A stretch of 6,259 bases of DNA from Clostridia bacterium (GTDB taxonomy: Bacteria; Bacillota_E; SLMV01; PUMD01). Below the pieces are notes generated by a model. That model did no database searches, was not told the DNA's origin, and saw nothing but the letters and a program-made list of their open reading frames with translations. The stretch is from positions 1 through 6,259 of the forward strand of contig PWUC01000132.1 in assembly GCA_003562655.1 (NCBI GenBank), written 5' to 3'. Positions 2,604-6,259 of this stretch are shown in pieces. The position numbers and the translations under genes are program-made. How positions within the stretch are numbered: the stretch's first letter is position 1; each line of letters begins with the position of its first letter.

Positions 2604-3767
2604 TCACACCTCCCTCTCGTGGACGATTTCTCCGTCTATGATCGTGTAGTCCGCAAAGGTCGTGTAGTCCAGGGGATCGCCGGACCAGATGACCACATCG
2701 GCATCCTTTCCGACTTCCAGGGAGCCGACCCGATCTTCAATCCCGATGTGCTCGGCAGCAGAGAGGGTGATGGATCTAAGCGCGGTGTCATAGTCCATGC
2801 CCCATGAGACCGCAATCCCGGCCGTGATCGGTAGGAACTGGCCCGCAATGACAGGATGATCCGTTATGAGACAGAAGTGCACGCCCCTGCGAGCCAGTTC
2901 CACGGGAGTGCGAAAGCTCCGGTCCCGGTTCTCCACCTTGGAACCGTACTTCAGTGTTGGACCCACGGCACAGTAGGCCTCATGGTCGAGTAGCAGATCC
3001 ACCACGCGGTCACCCTCCGTCACATGCTCCAGGGTGAACCGCAGCCCGTACTCCTCACACAGTCGGAGGGCGGTGACGATGTCGTCAGCCCGGTGGCAGT
3101 GAACCTGCAGGGGGATCTGGCGGTTCAAGACGGGGATCAGGGCCTCTGCCCTCGCATTGAAACCCGGCGGCTTCTCCCCGTCATCCTCCGCCCTCTGCTT
3201 GCGCTCCATGTACTGCCTCGCCTCACTCAGGGCCTCCCTGATCATGGCCGCACTCCCCATCCTGGTAGAAGGAGCCTTGCCTCTCCGCCCGTAAGAGCCC
3301 TTCGGGTTCTGCCCGAGAGCCGCCTTCATCCCAACTGGATGTGCGATCACCATCTCATCTGCGATACTGCCCCAACACTTGATCGCCACGGCCGTCCCGC
3401 CGATCAGATTTCCACTTCCGGGTGGGACCAGCGCCGAAGTGATGCCCGCCTCCCGGAATTCCCGCAAGGCATCATCCCTGGGGTTGATGCCGTCCAGCGC
3501 GTCAACCTCTGGCGTAAAGGGATCACTGGACTCGTTGGCATCTCTGCCCTCCCATCCCACACCCTGTTCGTTGATTCCCACGTGGGCGTGGGCCTCCACT
3601 ATGCCCGGGGTGACCGGCCTTCCACCCGCGTCAATCACGCGGGCCTCCTCCGGGATCTCGACATCCGTCCCGACAGCGGCGATCTTTCCCTCGCGGATCA
3701 GCAGAGTTGAGCCACATATCCTCCCGTGACTGACGGCATGAATTTCCGCGTTGATGATTGCCAGCAT
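2604..3767 (-). CDS. Metal-dependent amidohydrolase, paralog 1 of 3, first gene of the operon
   Basis: The 387-residue product is a predicted cytoplasmic metal-dependent amidohydrolase of the imidazolonepropionase-like group; the substrate is not assignable. The N-terminal beta-sandwich leads into H60/H62 (EAHAHVG). After that come a glycine-rich [10 protein letters not shown] segment (116-124), shared lysines K130 and K148 ([11 protein letters not shown]), H223 (QVHCHR), H248 (TLEH) and D303 (LITDHP). The C-terminal [20 protein letters not shown] is the usual strand that closes the sandwich around the barrel. The ATG at 3765-3767 has GGAGG 9 nt upstream and aligns with the last gene of the operon. 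The open frame extends upstream to 3929, but that extension crosses the promoter and operator of the divergent gene and shows no family similarity. The next gene begins 5 nt after its stop codon. No convincing minus-strand promoter was found in the 193-base divergent region. Confidence 0.92.
2609..2613 (-). promoter_or_regulatory. Ribosome binding site of the middle amidohydrolase gene
   Basis: GGAGG, continuing as GGAGGTG, lies on the minus strand within the last codons (Glu-Val-stop) of the first amidohydrolase gene. It is 10 nt from the ATG at 2598 but only 1 nt from the in-frame GTG at 2607, so it supports the ATG start and translational coupling. Confidence 0.72.
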
Positions 3768-3860
3768 CGAAATTCGCCTCCGTTCCTGTCCACATGTATG
3801 CGTTCTTCGTGGACTTCCACATCCACTGACGTCCTTCCTGCGATGCCATGCGATTGCGTC

Positions 3861-3890
3861 TTGACATCCCCCCGGCTCAGCGTATAAGAT
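3861..3890 (+). promoter_or_regulatory. Sigma-70-type promoter of the Cys/His-rich protein gene
   Basis: A perfect -35 hexamer, TTGACA, lies at 3861-3866. The -10 can be read as TATAAG (3883-3888, 16-nt spacer) or TAAGAT (3885-3890, 18-nt spacer). Transcription should begin near 3895-3898, giving a leader of roughly 65 nt before the ATG at 3961. The spacer holds a run of seven C residues. This is the clearest promoter in the window. Confidence 0.72.
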
Positions 3891-3898
3891 AGAGTCCA

Positions 3899-3919
3899 CT
3901 ATATGTTTGCGACATATAG
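3899..3919. promoter_or_regulatory. Inverted-repeat operator overlapping the predicted transcription start
   Basis: CTATATGT (3899-3906) and ACATATAG (3912-3919) are perfect 8-bp inverted arms around a 5-nt spacer. The element stands out as AT-rich in GC-rich DNA. It lies immediately downstream of the -10, where a dimeric repressor would block initiation. AT-rich palindromes at this position are known for metal-sensing ArsR/SmtB-type repressors and other winged-helix or TetR-type regulators. The sequence alone does not identify the protein, and no regulator gene is in the window. Because the region is divergent, it could also affect the amidohydrolase operon. Confidence 0.6.
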
Positions 3920-3945
3920 ATAGACACAACCCTCATAAACGGGAG

Positions 3946-3953
3946 AAAGGAGG
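3946..3953 (+). promoter_or_regulatory. Strong ribosome binding site of the Cys/His-rich protein gene
   Basis: AAAGGAGG lies 7 nt before the ATG at 3961, which is close to ideal. It selects that ATG over the in-frame upstream start at 3907, which falls inside the operator and has no Shine-Dalgarno sequence. Confidence 0.85.
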
Positions 3954-3960
3954 CCATCGC

Positions 3961-4230
3961 ATGTGTGGTAGGAGAAGAGGCTGTCACCGGGGACACCGTG
4001 GGCACCGTCGGCATTCAGGTTGCGGCTGTGAACGTCATGTCCATTATCATTATCACTGCTGCTGTGGCAGGCACCATCAGACCCGCAAGTCCGAATGCTG
4101 CTGTGGCGGGGAAAAGCACGACGAGGGCGAGGACTGCTGTCGGGGCGAAAAGCGCAGCGAGGACTGTGAGCACGACAAGAAGGAATGCTGCCACTCGGAA
4201 GATGCCGCTGAGGAATCCTGTAAGGAGTAG
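3961..4230 (+). CDS. Small Cys/His-rich protein, probable metal binder (unrecognised family)
   Basis: I do not recognise this 89-residue protein. It contains 16 Cys (2, 8, 21, 23, 33-35, 46-48, 59-60, 69, 76-77, 87) and 13 His, with no signal peptide or membrane segment, so it is probably cytoplasmic. Residues 1-43 are basic, with ten Arg, one Lys, one Glu and most of the His (HRGHRGHRRH, then RHVHYHYHCCC). Residues 44-89 are acidic, with 17 Asp/Glu against 7 Lys/Arg, and carry CCC and CC clusters. The motif CC-(G/R)-GEK recurs 12 residues apart, and the DNA of that unit is visibly duplicated (4099-4134 and 4135-4170). Cys density and His-rich segments suggest metal storage, detoxification or chaperoning, analogous to metallothioneins (inference; no known metallothionein signature was recognised). 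Promoter, operator and ribosome binding site are all well formed, which argues that it is a real, regulated gene. A hairpin follows the stop codon. Confidence 0.83.
   Translation: MCGRRRGCHRGHRGHRRHSGCGCERHVHYHYHCCCGRHHQTRKSECCCGGEKHDEGEDCCRGEKRSEDCEHDKKECCHSEDAAEESCKE
4099..4170 (+). repeat. Two tandem 36-bp units inside the Cys/His-rich gene
   Basis: The segments 4099-4134 and 4135-4170 are adjacent 12-codon units, identical at 25 of 36 positions by my manual comparison. Both begin TGCTGT and share a GAAAAGC block. They encode related peptides starting CCGGEK and CCRGEK. The 12-mer TGCTGCTGTGGC also occurs twice, at 4057 and 4096. The gene seems to have grown by in-frame duplication of Cys-containing units. 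Confidence 0.6.
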
Positions 4231-4246
4231 ATCGGCTGATCCTAGA

Positions 4247-4277
4247 GGGGGTGGGCCGGAGTTCCTGTCCCACCCCC
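4247..4277 (+). terminator. GC-rich hairpin after the Cys/His-rich gene, putative terminator
   Basis: GGGGGTGGG (4247-4255) pairs perfectly with CCCACCCCC (4269-4277), giving a 9-bp stem and a 13-nt loop that starts 16 nt after the stop codon. It would be very stable, but no T-run follows, so it may pause or terminate without the canonical tail, or protect the 3' end of the messenger. Confidence 0.45.
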
Positions 4278-4869
4278 CGATGATGTGCGAAGGGCGGCCA
4301 GCACCACGAATCCCACCCCACCCTCACTGTGTCCGTCCAGACCACCCCGGATAATTCCAGATGGGCCAGCCACAGACGGGTGCGCACCGGGCCCGCCTGC
4401 ATCCTGCGCTGTGAGCCGCGGTCTCTGCCCCCTGCACTGGGAAAAACTGAAGAGATAGCGTGTAGAGAGAAAGGATATCGGGCGAGTTTCGTGGAATAGC
4501 GAGCCAGAGACAATGGATATATGCATGTACCACATGGAACACCTGCGCGCATGGCGGATCCGCAATACCGTGCATCGGTACCGGATACACTCCTTGCGGG
4601 ACCCAGGCGCACGCGTTCAGCACGGTAGCATGTACGAACAGCCGGGCTGTGCCGTTGTGCGTGTGGCAAGCCTGTTGCACAGAGATGTACCGACGTCCCT
4701 GGCTGGGGATGCATAGGGCGTACACACTGTCAACGGTACCTCGCACCCCGGTTCGCATTCGCAGGAGGATCCGGCCCTGTGATTGGGTGGGTTGACCGAT
4801 CCAGCGCATGTCCTGACCAGGGAGCGCCGGTCGGTTTGGCGGGAGACATCCGCACGAAGGGGGAGTTCG
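4278..4869. other. Intergenic region of about 590 bases without a supported gene
   Basis: Both strands carry open frames here, including a minus-strand frame of 250 codons at 4324-5076. None has family-like sequence, and the longest overlap the lipoprotein start. I see only short palindromes: GCGGATCCGC at 4554-4563, CGGTACCG at 4576-4583, and CATGT/ACATG arms at 4524-4536. There is no tRNA cloverleaf or convincing promoter. The stretch could hold the unseen promoter and leader of the downstream lipoprotein gene, an unrecognised small RNA, or decayed sequence. Confidence 0.5.
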
Positions 4870-6259
4870 ATGAGAGCACATCTCTGGGCACTCGCGTTGT
4901 TGTGGATAGTTGTCGCTGTCGTACCGGGCGGCTGCGCCGTCCTCGGAACCGCAGCCATTTCCCCGGGAGATGCCGACGAGTACCAGGTGGGCAATGTGCC
5001 GTTCACCGTGCGGCACGTCCCGTCGGCCACCTTCCCGGCGGGTGTGGAGGACGAAGAGGAGGCGACGGTTGCACACGATTTCTGGATCGGCGAGATGCCC
5101 GTGACCTACGAGCTATGGTATGAAGTCCGGGTTTGGGCGGAGGAGAGAGGATACAATTTCCGTAACCCGGGGTACGAGGGAAGCGACGGGAATCGCGGGA
5201 GGGAACCGTCAGAGGACCGGTACCAGCCGGTGACCAGGATCAACTGGTATGAGGCCATGGTCTGGTGCAACGCCCTGTCGGAATACATGGGGTTCCTCCC
5301 CATCTACATCCACGAGGGACAAGTGTACCGGGATTCCACCGACCGCGCCGACCCCGAGGGCTTTCTTGTGCAGCAGGTCATCGGTTTTCGCCTGCCCACG
5401 TCGGACGAGTGGGAGCTGGCCGCCCGGTACCGGGGCCGGGACCGGAGGCACGGGGCCATCCGGTGCCCCGACGGTGGCCGCATCTACTACACGCCGGGCA
5501 GTTATGCCAGCGGCGCCACCGGTCCCTACACGGACGAGGAGGCCACCGCCGCGGCGGCCTGGTATCCGGGCAATACCGACGGACAGACGCAGCCCGTGGG
5601 CGGGAAACCCCCGGACGGCAACCACCTCGGTCTGTACGACATGAGCGGCAACGTTTTCGAATGGGTCGATGCTCCTGAGGGGGGCGAGCCCCTACTTCGC
5701 GGTGGATCCATCTCCGGCAACATCGCCGATCTGCAGGTGGGCATGGCAAACCCGCGGGGGTCCCCCCGGCCCGGCACTACCTTCACCAATGTCGGCCTGC
5801 GCGTCGTGTTGGCCCTCGAGGTGGCGCCGACAGAGGTGGTCGTCGTCTTTGATCGGGAGGACGTCGGGCGCGAGGAAGAGCTCGAGAAAGAGGATATAGT
5901 TGATGAGGATGTCCCCTATCCCGTCGGAAGCCTCGTCGAGGTGCAGTGGCAGGGCAACTGGTACAGCGCCCAGGTGCTGGAGACCGATGGGGACCGTCAC
6001 TACATCTCCTACGAAGGCTACGACAGCAGCTGGGATGAGTGGGTCGACTCCTCGCGCATTCGGGACCGGAGCGACGAGCTGGTCATCGAGACCATCGAGC
6101 GGGCGGCCGTCGTCGTGGATCACGGTACGGACCTGGCAGACGTGGAGTTCCCCGGGGAGGTCCAGGTGACGCTGCAGGATGGTTCCACTTTCTGGGCCGA
6201 CGTGCAGTGGGGTCGCGCCCCCTACGATCCCGATGCGGAGGGGGAGTACCCGTTTTCCG
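4870..6259 (+). CDS. SUMF1/FGE-fold lipoprotein with Tudor-like and Ig-like modules (3' end outside the window)
   Basis: 463 residues are visible, with no stop codon before the window edge. The N-terminus has one Arg, a hydrophobic core (about 5-18) and a relaxed lipobox ending VPGG-C22, so it is probably a lipoprotein exported to the envelope. Residues about 43-318 match the formylglycine-generating-enzyme/SUMF1 fold (FGE-sulfatase family): FWIGEMPVTYELW (71-83), VTRINWYEAMVWCN (121-134), GFRLPTSDEWELAAR (172-186), GLYDMSGNVFEWV (254-266), RGGS (277-280) and VGLRVV near 310-315. The catalytic cysteine pair expected between RGGS and the final GFR motif is absent; the only cysteines are C22, C133 and C199. 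Formylglycine synthesis is therefore unlikely, and a binding or structural role is more plausible. An acidic linker (about 331-350) leads to a Tudor-knot-like module (351-398; GNWYSAQVL, YEGYDSSWDEWV). A Big_4-like Ig module begins near 411 (PGEVQVTLQDGS, VQW, YDPDAEGEY). The ATG is chosen for the signal peptide and the purine-rich AAGGGGGAG ending 4 nt upstream. Confidence 0.85.
   Translation, partial: MRAHLWALALLWIVVAVVPGGCAVLGTAAISPGDADEYQVGNVPFTVRHVPSATFPAGVEDEEEATVAHDFWIGEMPVTYELWYEVRVWAEERGYNFRNPGYEGSDGNRGREPSEDRYQPVTRINWYEAMVWCNALSEYMGFLPIYIHEGQVYRDSTDRADPEGFLVQQVIGFRLPTSDEWELAARYRGRDRRHGAIRCPDGGRIYYTPGSYASGATGPYTDEEATAAAAWYPGNTDGQTQPVGGKPPDGNHLGLYDMSGNVFEWVDAPEGGEPLLRGGSISGNIADLQVGMANPRGSPRPGTTFTNVGLRVVLALEVAPTEVVVVFDREDVGREEELEKEDIVDEDVPYPVGSLVEVQWQGNWYSAQVLETDGDRHYISYEGYDSSWDEWVDSSRIRDRSDELVIETIERAAVVVDHGTDLADVEFPGEVQVTLQDGSTFWADVQWGRAPYDPDAEGEYPFS

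Follow-up and report, generated by a model that had tools for sequence, protein, structure and literature searches.

Bacterial metallothioneins of the SmtA/BmtA type are small, Cys-rich proteins with some His residues and without a hydrophobic core, which are induced by metals via a repressor; SmtB is a repressor of the ArsR type. Hpn and Hpn-like are His-rich nickel proteins, which are short and contain few Cys residues. Within the PadR family of regulators, Rv3488 is a metal-binding protein of mycobacteria with structures on record, and LmrR is the PadR-type regulator of the multidrug ABC exporter LmrCD. The PadR-family gene chrI of Bacillus cereus SJ1 is induced together with chrA1 by chromate (PMC2936356), and published PadR operators are inverted repeats of the form ATGT-(N)8-10-ACAT (PMC3506622).

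The gene considered here (3961..4230, forward strand) lies in a 6,259-nt stretch of DNA from a Clostridia bacterium (contig PWUC01000132.1), the whole of which is referred to as the window. It was delimited and assessed by its reading frame, an ortholog alignment, a codon-position test and residue conservation. The encoded protein of 89 residues starts with MCGRRRGC and holds 16 Cys and 13 His, exactly as counted in a preliminary description of this DNA. Residues 1-44 include 10 His, 11 Lys/Arg and a single acidic residue, and residues 45-89 include 9 Cys and 17 acidic residues. The Cys clusters (residues 21/23, 33-35, 46-48 and 59-60) and their period of 12-13 residues, both pointed out in that description, are present in the window protein; as a family feature the period does not hold, since it is not conserved in the alignment of the distant relatives. 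The 89-residue sequence contains no hydrophobic signal-like stretch. AlphaFold2 (with 5 sequences), in whose output a Csp-type four-helix bundle was looked for, gave a mean pLDDT of 38 and no secondary structure for this protein, which also lacks a Pfam match. Small size combined with a very high Cys content, a trait of metallothioneins, is found both in the window protein (89 residues, 16 Cys) and in its relatives (91-168 residues, 14-35 Cys).

A scan of contigs with the nearest amidohydrolase as the query yielded two loci, both in Clostridia MAGs: L001 (T3Sed10_282; 88% amidohydrolase identity) and L002 (B1Sed10_244R1; 73%). T3Sed10 and B1Sed10 are sample names of a soda-lake sediment study (PMC6146748). 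At the equivalent position, L001 (genome G001) carries an ortholog of the Cys/His gene with 63% protein identity, in which all gaps are multiples of three and the frame is preserved. Over 82 aligned codons, the two genes differ at 14, 17 and 44 first, second and third codon positions, respectively (pS 0.84, pN 0.19; no dN/dS ratio is given because pS is saturated at this value). Conserved in L001 are 12 of the 16 Cys, 11 of the 13 His and 29 of the 60 other residues, so Cys and His are retained at a higher rate than the remaining residues. Conservation extends to the promoter, the arms of the palindrome, the ribosome binding site and the G+C-rich hairpin 3' of the stop codon, all described below. 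In a simulation of 200,000 frames of 89 codons with a first-order Markov chain trained on positions 3780-4500 of the window, the 7,253 stop-free frames contained at most 18 Cys plus His, versus 29 in the real protein. That 3961-4230 is a real protein-coding gene is thus well supported, in agreement with the original judgement that a chance frame is unlikely. Of the findings that had been named in advance as able to overturn it, the two based on sequence, a lack of homologs with conserved Cys/His and a non-coding substitution pattern, turned out the other way: a homolog keeping most of the Cys and His was found, and the L001 comparison gave the pattern of a coding gene.

Upstream of the Cys/His gene, the minus strand of the window carries three tandem paralogous amidohydrolases (276-1430, 1432-2607 and 2607-3770; Pfam PF07969/PF01979), with no NCBIfam equivalog at cut-off among the best 25 matches listed; their gene order is conserved in several relatives. 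A link between this operon and the Cys/His gene was considered and rejected: no Cys/His gene adjoins the amidohydrolases of L002 (the operon of genome G002), where it sits on another contig, and operon and Cys/His gene are on separate contigs in G005 and G007 as well. Between 4331 and 4480, on the minus strand, lies a possible remnant of the end of a leucyl-aminopeptidase-like gene (tblastn E 0.027), and such a gene occupies the equivalent place in L001; this remnant suggests a rearrangement adjoining the Cys/His gene. Further downstream, a lipoprotein-like frame on the plus strand (4870-6257) contains, according to Pfam, an FGE-sulfatase domain and then a Tudor-knot/chromo-like domain, which is unusual for a bacterium.

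Several control signals accompany the gene, with the promoter elements and the ribosome binding site on the plus strand. A consensus scan identified a -35 element TTGACA (3861..3866), identical in L001, L051 and L052 and replaced by TTGACC in L050, and, 18 bases further, a -10 element TAAGAT (3885..3890). Together they match 10 of 12 consensus bases; between 3700 and 4900 there are 2 sites of that quality versus 0.6 expected in shuffles, and taken alone this promoter match is weak. The 21-bp palindrome CTATATGT-TTGCG-ACATATAG (3899..3919), read from the sequence, consists of perfect 8-base arms around a 5-base centre, is expected to cover the transcription start, and is represented below by the pattern CTATATG-N7-CATATAG. 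The ribosome binding site AAAGGAGG (3946..3953), also read from the sequence, ends 7 bases upstream of the ATG, with GAGGAGG at the equivalent place in L001. Beyond the stop codon, the G+C-rich hairpin GGGGGTGGG...CCCACCCCC (4247..4278, plus strand) is a possible terminator without a T run; a terminator scan in which a T run was required found none. Of the control signals claimed in the preliminary description, the promoter and the palindromic operator are borne out by their conservation.

The palindrome proved to be a route to further members of the family. It was searched for with at most 1 mismatch in 101 relatives, and the loci were then scanned for Cys/His-rich frames. This revealed 10 sites in 10 genomes: (i) four open directly onto a Cys/His-rich frame (in G001, the L001 ortholog already known, and in G002, G005 and G007), (ii) three lie at padR genes (G033, G072 and G080) and (iii) three (L046, L048 and L054) are linked to neither. 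The genes of G002, G005 and G007 are new loci, on contigs other than those with the amidohydrolase operon. The five members, including that of the window, have 89-168 residues with 14-35 Cys and 13-29 His, and Cys equals or outnumbers His in four of them. In all five, a His/Cys half almost without acidic residues (0-2) precedes an acidic Cys half (14-25 acidic residues), so the two-part layout noticed in the window protein, with a basic His half and an acidic Cys half, recurs throughout the family. Their control regions are alike too: the hexamers are 17 or 18 bases apart and the -10 element lies 8 bases from the palindrome in each case (the G002 hexamers in L050, TTGACC and TACACT, were picked by eye), and the distance from the palindrome to the start codon ranges from 31 to 71 bases. 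The G002 protein (L056, 5672-6019; 116 residues, 30 Cys, 27 His) has an extended stretch in which Cys and His alternate as dipeptides, an unusual ligand array. Two genes for ABC exporters lie directly downstream of the Cys/His gene in both G005 and G007.

Exact copies of the palindrome were found at 5 sites in 154 genomes of the class and at 7 sites in 398 genomes of the phylum, with one in common. Three of these 11 distinct sites are located at Cys/His genes of the family (G001, G005 and G007), seven at padR genes (G072, G102, G460, G423, G503, G373 and G532) and one at a chromate transporter gene; an operator common to padR genes, as is characteristic of a PadR regulon, is hence seen at 7 of the 11 sites of the class and phylum samples. 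In G532, the site separates padR from a divergently oriented ABC exporter gene. All seven of these PadRs, as well as that of L047, match Pfam PF03551. In G485 (L121, 1501-2803), the chromate transporter gene (PF02417) is directly 3' of the exact operator, and no padR was found in this 3-kb locus; the operator copy is nested there inside a longer palindrome. The reversed pattern, used as a control, gave 2 sites versus 5 palindromes in the class genomes and 10 versus 7 in the phylum genomes, and in a comparison with 2 mismatches in nine close genomes 12 sites stood against 42. Because the palindrome count does not exceed that of this control, the case for an operator rests on the positions of the sites. 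Its conservation in L001 and its recurrence at Cys/His genes in three other genomes and at padR promoters bear out the operator signal that had been proposed, and the palindrome is well supported as the putative operator of the Cys/His gene.

For the analysis of the regulators, 13 hand-picked PadRs were aligned; one Cys column on the N-terminal side of the winged helix is invariant in all 13, most of which have Cys-x-Cys there. When the class was searched with this alignment, 92 of the 154 genomes had matches at E<=1e-15, and the best 30 loci were taken, of which 29 were parsed (L148 was left out). Seven of the 29 have an upstream operator-like site with at most 2 mismatches (a quality reached at none of these loci by any of 200 shuffles), and at an eighth (L127, the same locus as L068) an exact site is found just beyond the stretch examined. 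A small Cys/His protein is encoded immediately downstream in 9 of the 29 class loci, as counted by eye: a script had flagged 12, and L126, L131 and L155 were dropped on inspection as other Cys-cluster frames or likely out-of-frame readings. These PadR-linked proteins mostly have a helical C-terminal tail and show no alignable similarity to the window family (hhalign probability 0.2), and the two groups may be alike by convergence only. Other genes 3' of padR, named by eye, encode permeases (that of L047 matches ArsP_1), a ferredoxin-like membrane protein and ABC exporters. The latter adjoin padR in G002 and L125, and ABC pairs also occur by padR without a Cys/His gene. G002 has a second PadR, with Cys-x-Cys, directly 5' of an ABC gene that is 60% identical to the one behind the Cys/His gene of G005. 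Three side observations concern these loci: in L106, L107 and L108, padR is followed by a gene resembling, by eye, cobalamin adenosyltransferase (GDGKGKTTAALGLALRAVGR); in L108 (G005), a near-perfect palindrome ATTTGTGA-G-TCACAAAT at about 1173-1193, 5' of padR, is possibly its own operator; and in L151, a PadR precedes a short acidic frame rich in Cys (MKCGCFDKDDKKCC...) and of metallothionein-like appearance.

A search with the L055 PadR retrieved close PadRs (E 1e-27 or better) from G001, G002, G005 and G007, i.e. the genomes with the Cys/His gene; of the other four among G001-G008, G003 and G006 gave none, G004 a match at E 4e-4 and G008 a partial one at 2e-12, while the more distant G009 has one PadR at 5e-25 (all of these being MAGs whose completeness is not established). 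The PadRs of the four genomes carry motifs such as CRCHHPGQG and agree with the operator-linked PadRs in the residues of the recognition helix and the wing. No good copy of the palindrome is present upstream of the best PadRs of these four genomes: the best upstream sites have 4 mismatches in L126 and L131 (8-9 of 200 shuffles equal) and 6 in L128 and L132 (no better than shuffles). As the sites are at least 4 mismatches away, they give no cis proof linking these PadRs to the operator of the Cys/His genes.

Sequence searches agreed with the initial impression that the protein belongs to no recognised family, as nothing matched in Pfam, NCBIfam, the PDB sequences or a large protein set. Neither the window protein nor its four relatives hit a Pfam or NCBIfam family at E<=1, and the PDB sequences gave no match to the window protein or to the alignment A3. 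In the large protein set, the single protein or a two-row alignment returned nothing at E<=10, and a five-row alignment nothing at E<=0.01 among 1,031 candidates; this absence is weak evidence because the L001 ortholog was not returned either, the gene probably not being predicted there. No match to the Cys/His protein was found in phages or plasmids, and none to Rfam in the window at E<=1. The genome profile search with A1 retrieved G001 only, plus eight matches at E 0.08-0.95 that are taken for chance, and that with A3, the five-member profile, recovered G002, G005 and G007 and missed G001. Since such profile searches are insensitive, absence from other genomes is not proven. Similarity searches miss metallothionein-like proteins because these are short, of low complexity and fast-evolving; the operator search reached genes that the protein searches had missed and thus offers a means of uncovering a class of metal chelators that is otherwise hidden. 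In the portions of literature retrieved by joining PadR to metals, metallothionein or proteins rich in Cys or His, the present system was not found, and looking for Rv3488 in connection with PadR and cadmium led to no paper.

Taken together, we consider it somewhat probable that the gene encodes a metallothionein-like, cytosolic, metal-sequestering protein that is repressed by a PadR sensor at the palindrome. The small, unstructured protein would sequester soft metal or metalloid ions (candidates are Cu(I), Ag, Cd, Hg, Zn and As(III)/Sb(III)) by binding them through the side chains of its Cys and His residues; metal binding is suggested by its composition and by the gene company. A PadR dimer of the window organism would occupy 3899-3919, over the expected transcription start, and block RNA polymerase. 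Its N-terminal Cys(-x-Cys)/His segment, with the Cys as the putative sensor, would bind the same ion or be oxidised, whereupon the dimer would be released and the chelator made on demand, in two relatives jointly with an ABC exporter pair. The purpose would be detoxification or buffering, and the small proteins packed with Cys and His that some uncultured clostridia make probably serve to trap toxic metals. Held more tentatively, with doubt slightly outweighing belief, is a wider metal-response circuit of the Bacillota, in which PadRs with an N-terminal Cys/His sensor segment, acting at CTATATG-N7-CATATAG, would control several kinds of unrecognised Cys/His chelators, some of them with extended Cys-His dipeptide runs, as well as permeases, ABC exporters and chromate transporters. 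The gene of the window would be one target. No such circuit was found in the portions of text that literature searches returned. For PadRs with an N-terminal Cys, this proposal would provide target genes and a DNA site that can be tested.

Several other explanations were weighed. The PadR could sense drugs or organic toxins, as LmrR does for LmrCD, and the Cys/His protein would then be a thiol buffer or a scavenger of electrophiles or oxidants. Multidrug systems classically combine a PadR with a pair of ABC exporters (LmrR/lmrCD is named in PMC3506622), and exporters of this type are present in the operon of G005 and G007 and by padR in G002 and L125. However, 13-29 His per protein and runs of Cys-His dipeptides would be of no use to a thiol scavenger, and a chromate transporter and the ArsP_1-matching permease are found at the same operator, so we regard this explanation as unlikely. 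Much less probable still is export of the protein by the adjoining ABC pair for an extracellular role, metallophore-like or as a toxic peptide. The two exporter genes immediately behind the Cys/His gene in G005 and G007 invite this idea, but the genes of the window, L001 and G002 have no ABC neighbours, the ABC proteins lack a peptidase domain (Pfam), the 89-residue protein has no signal-like hydrophobic stretch and ABC pairs accompany padR even where there is no Cys/His gene.

A comparably low, marginally smaller probability is given to the palindrome acting as a 5'-terminal mRNA hairpin, serving stability or an RNA-binding protein, rather than as a DNA operator. It would lie where the transcript begins, and in each of the five members it is able to pair (-2.6 to -6.6 kcal/mol), but the G002 stem is broken by one unpaired position, the loop varies widely between padR loci and the window gave no Rfam match. 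That the frame is functionless and merely of low complexity, as its strongly skewed composition and mean pLDDT of 38 in AlphaFold2 might suggest, is refuted by the comparisons and retains almost no probability: the L001 codon-position pattern, the in-frame indels and the conserved Cys/His and control signals contradict it, as do the similar proteins encoded downstream of this operator in three further genomes.

Systems in which a repressor controls a small chelator are known as such; within the scope of our searches, no description was found of this protein family, its two-part layout or the PadR operator. Like the SmtA/BmtA metallothioneins, the window protein is small, Cys-rich and without a hydrophobic core, and induction by metals via a repressor is expected; unlike them, its family has no Pfam or NCBIfam match, contains far more His and has halves of opposite charge, and its operator is common to PadR genes rather than to an ArsR-type repressor as in SmtB-type control. 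With Hpn and Hpn-like it shares a short, His-rich sequence and the predicted character of a probably disordered metal store, but Cys equals or exceeds His in four of the five family members (16 Cys in the window protein) and there is no family match. The PadR-linked small proteins of L120, L122, L055, L129, L139 and L147 are also short, Cys/His-rich and under the same type of operator or regulator, but a coiled-coil helical tail replaces the acidic Cys half. The window palindrome resembles the inverted repeat ATGT-(N)8-10-ACAT reported for PadR operators in PMC3506622, but has a shorter spacer than this canonical form (ATGT-N5-ACAT). LmrR-lmrCD and ChrI-chrA1 share with the present system the repressor family, an inverted-repeat operator and neighbouring genes for ABC exporters or a chromate transporter; what sets the present system apart is that the predicted target is a Cys/His chelator gene and that the PadR carries Cys/His at its N-terminus.
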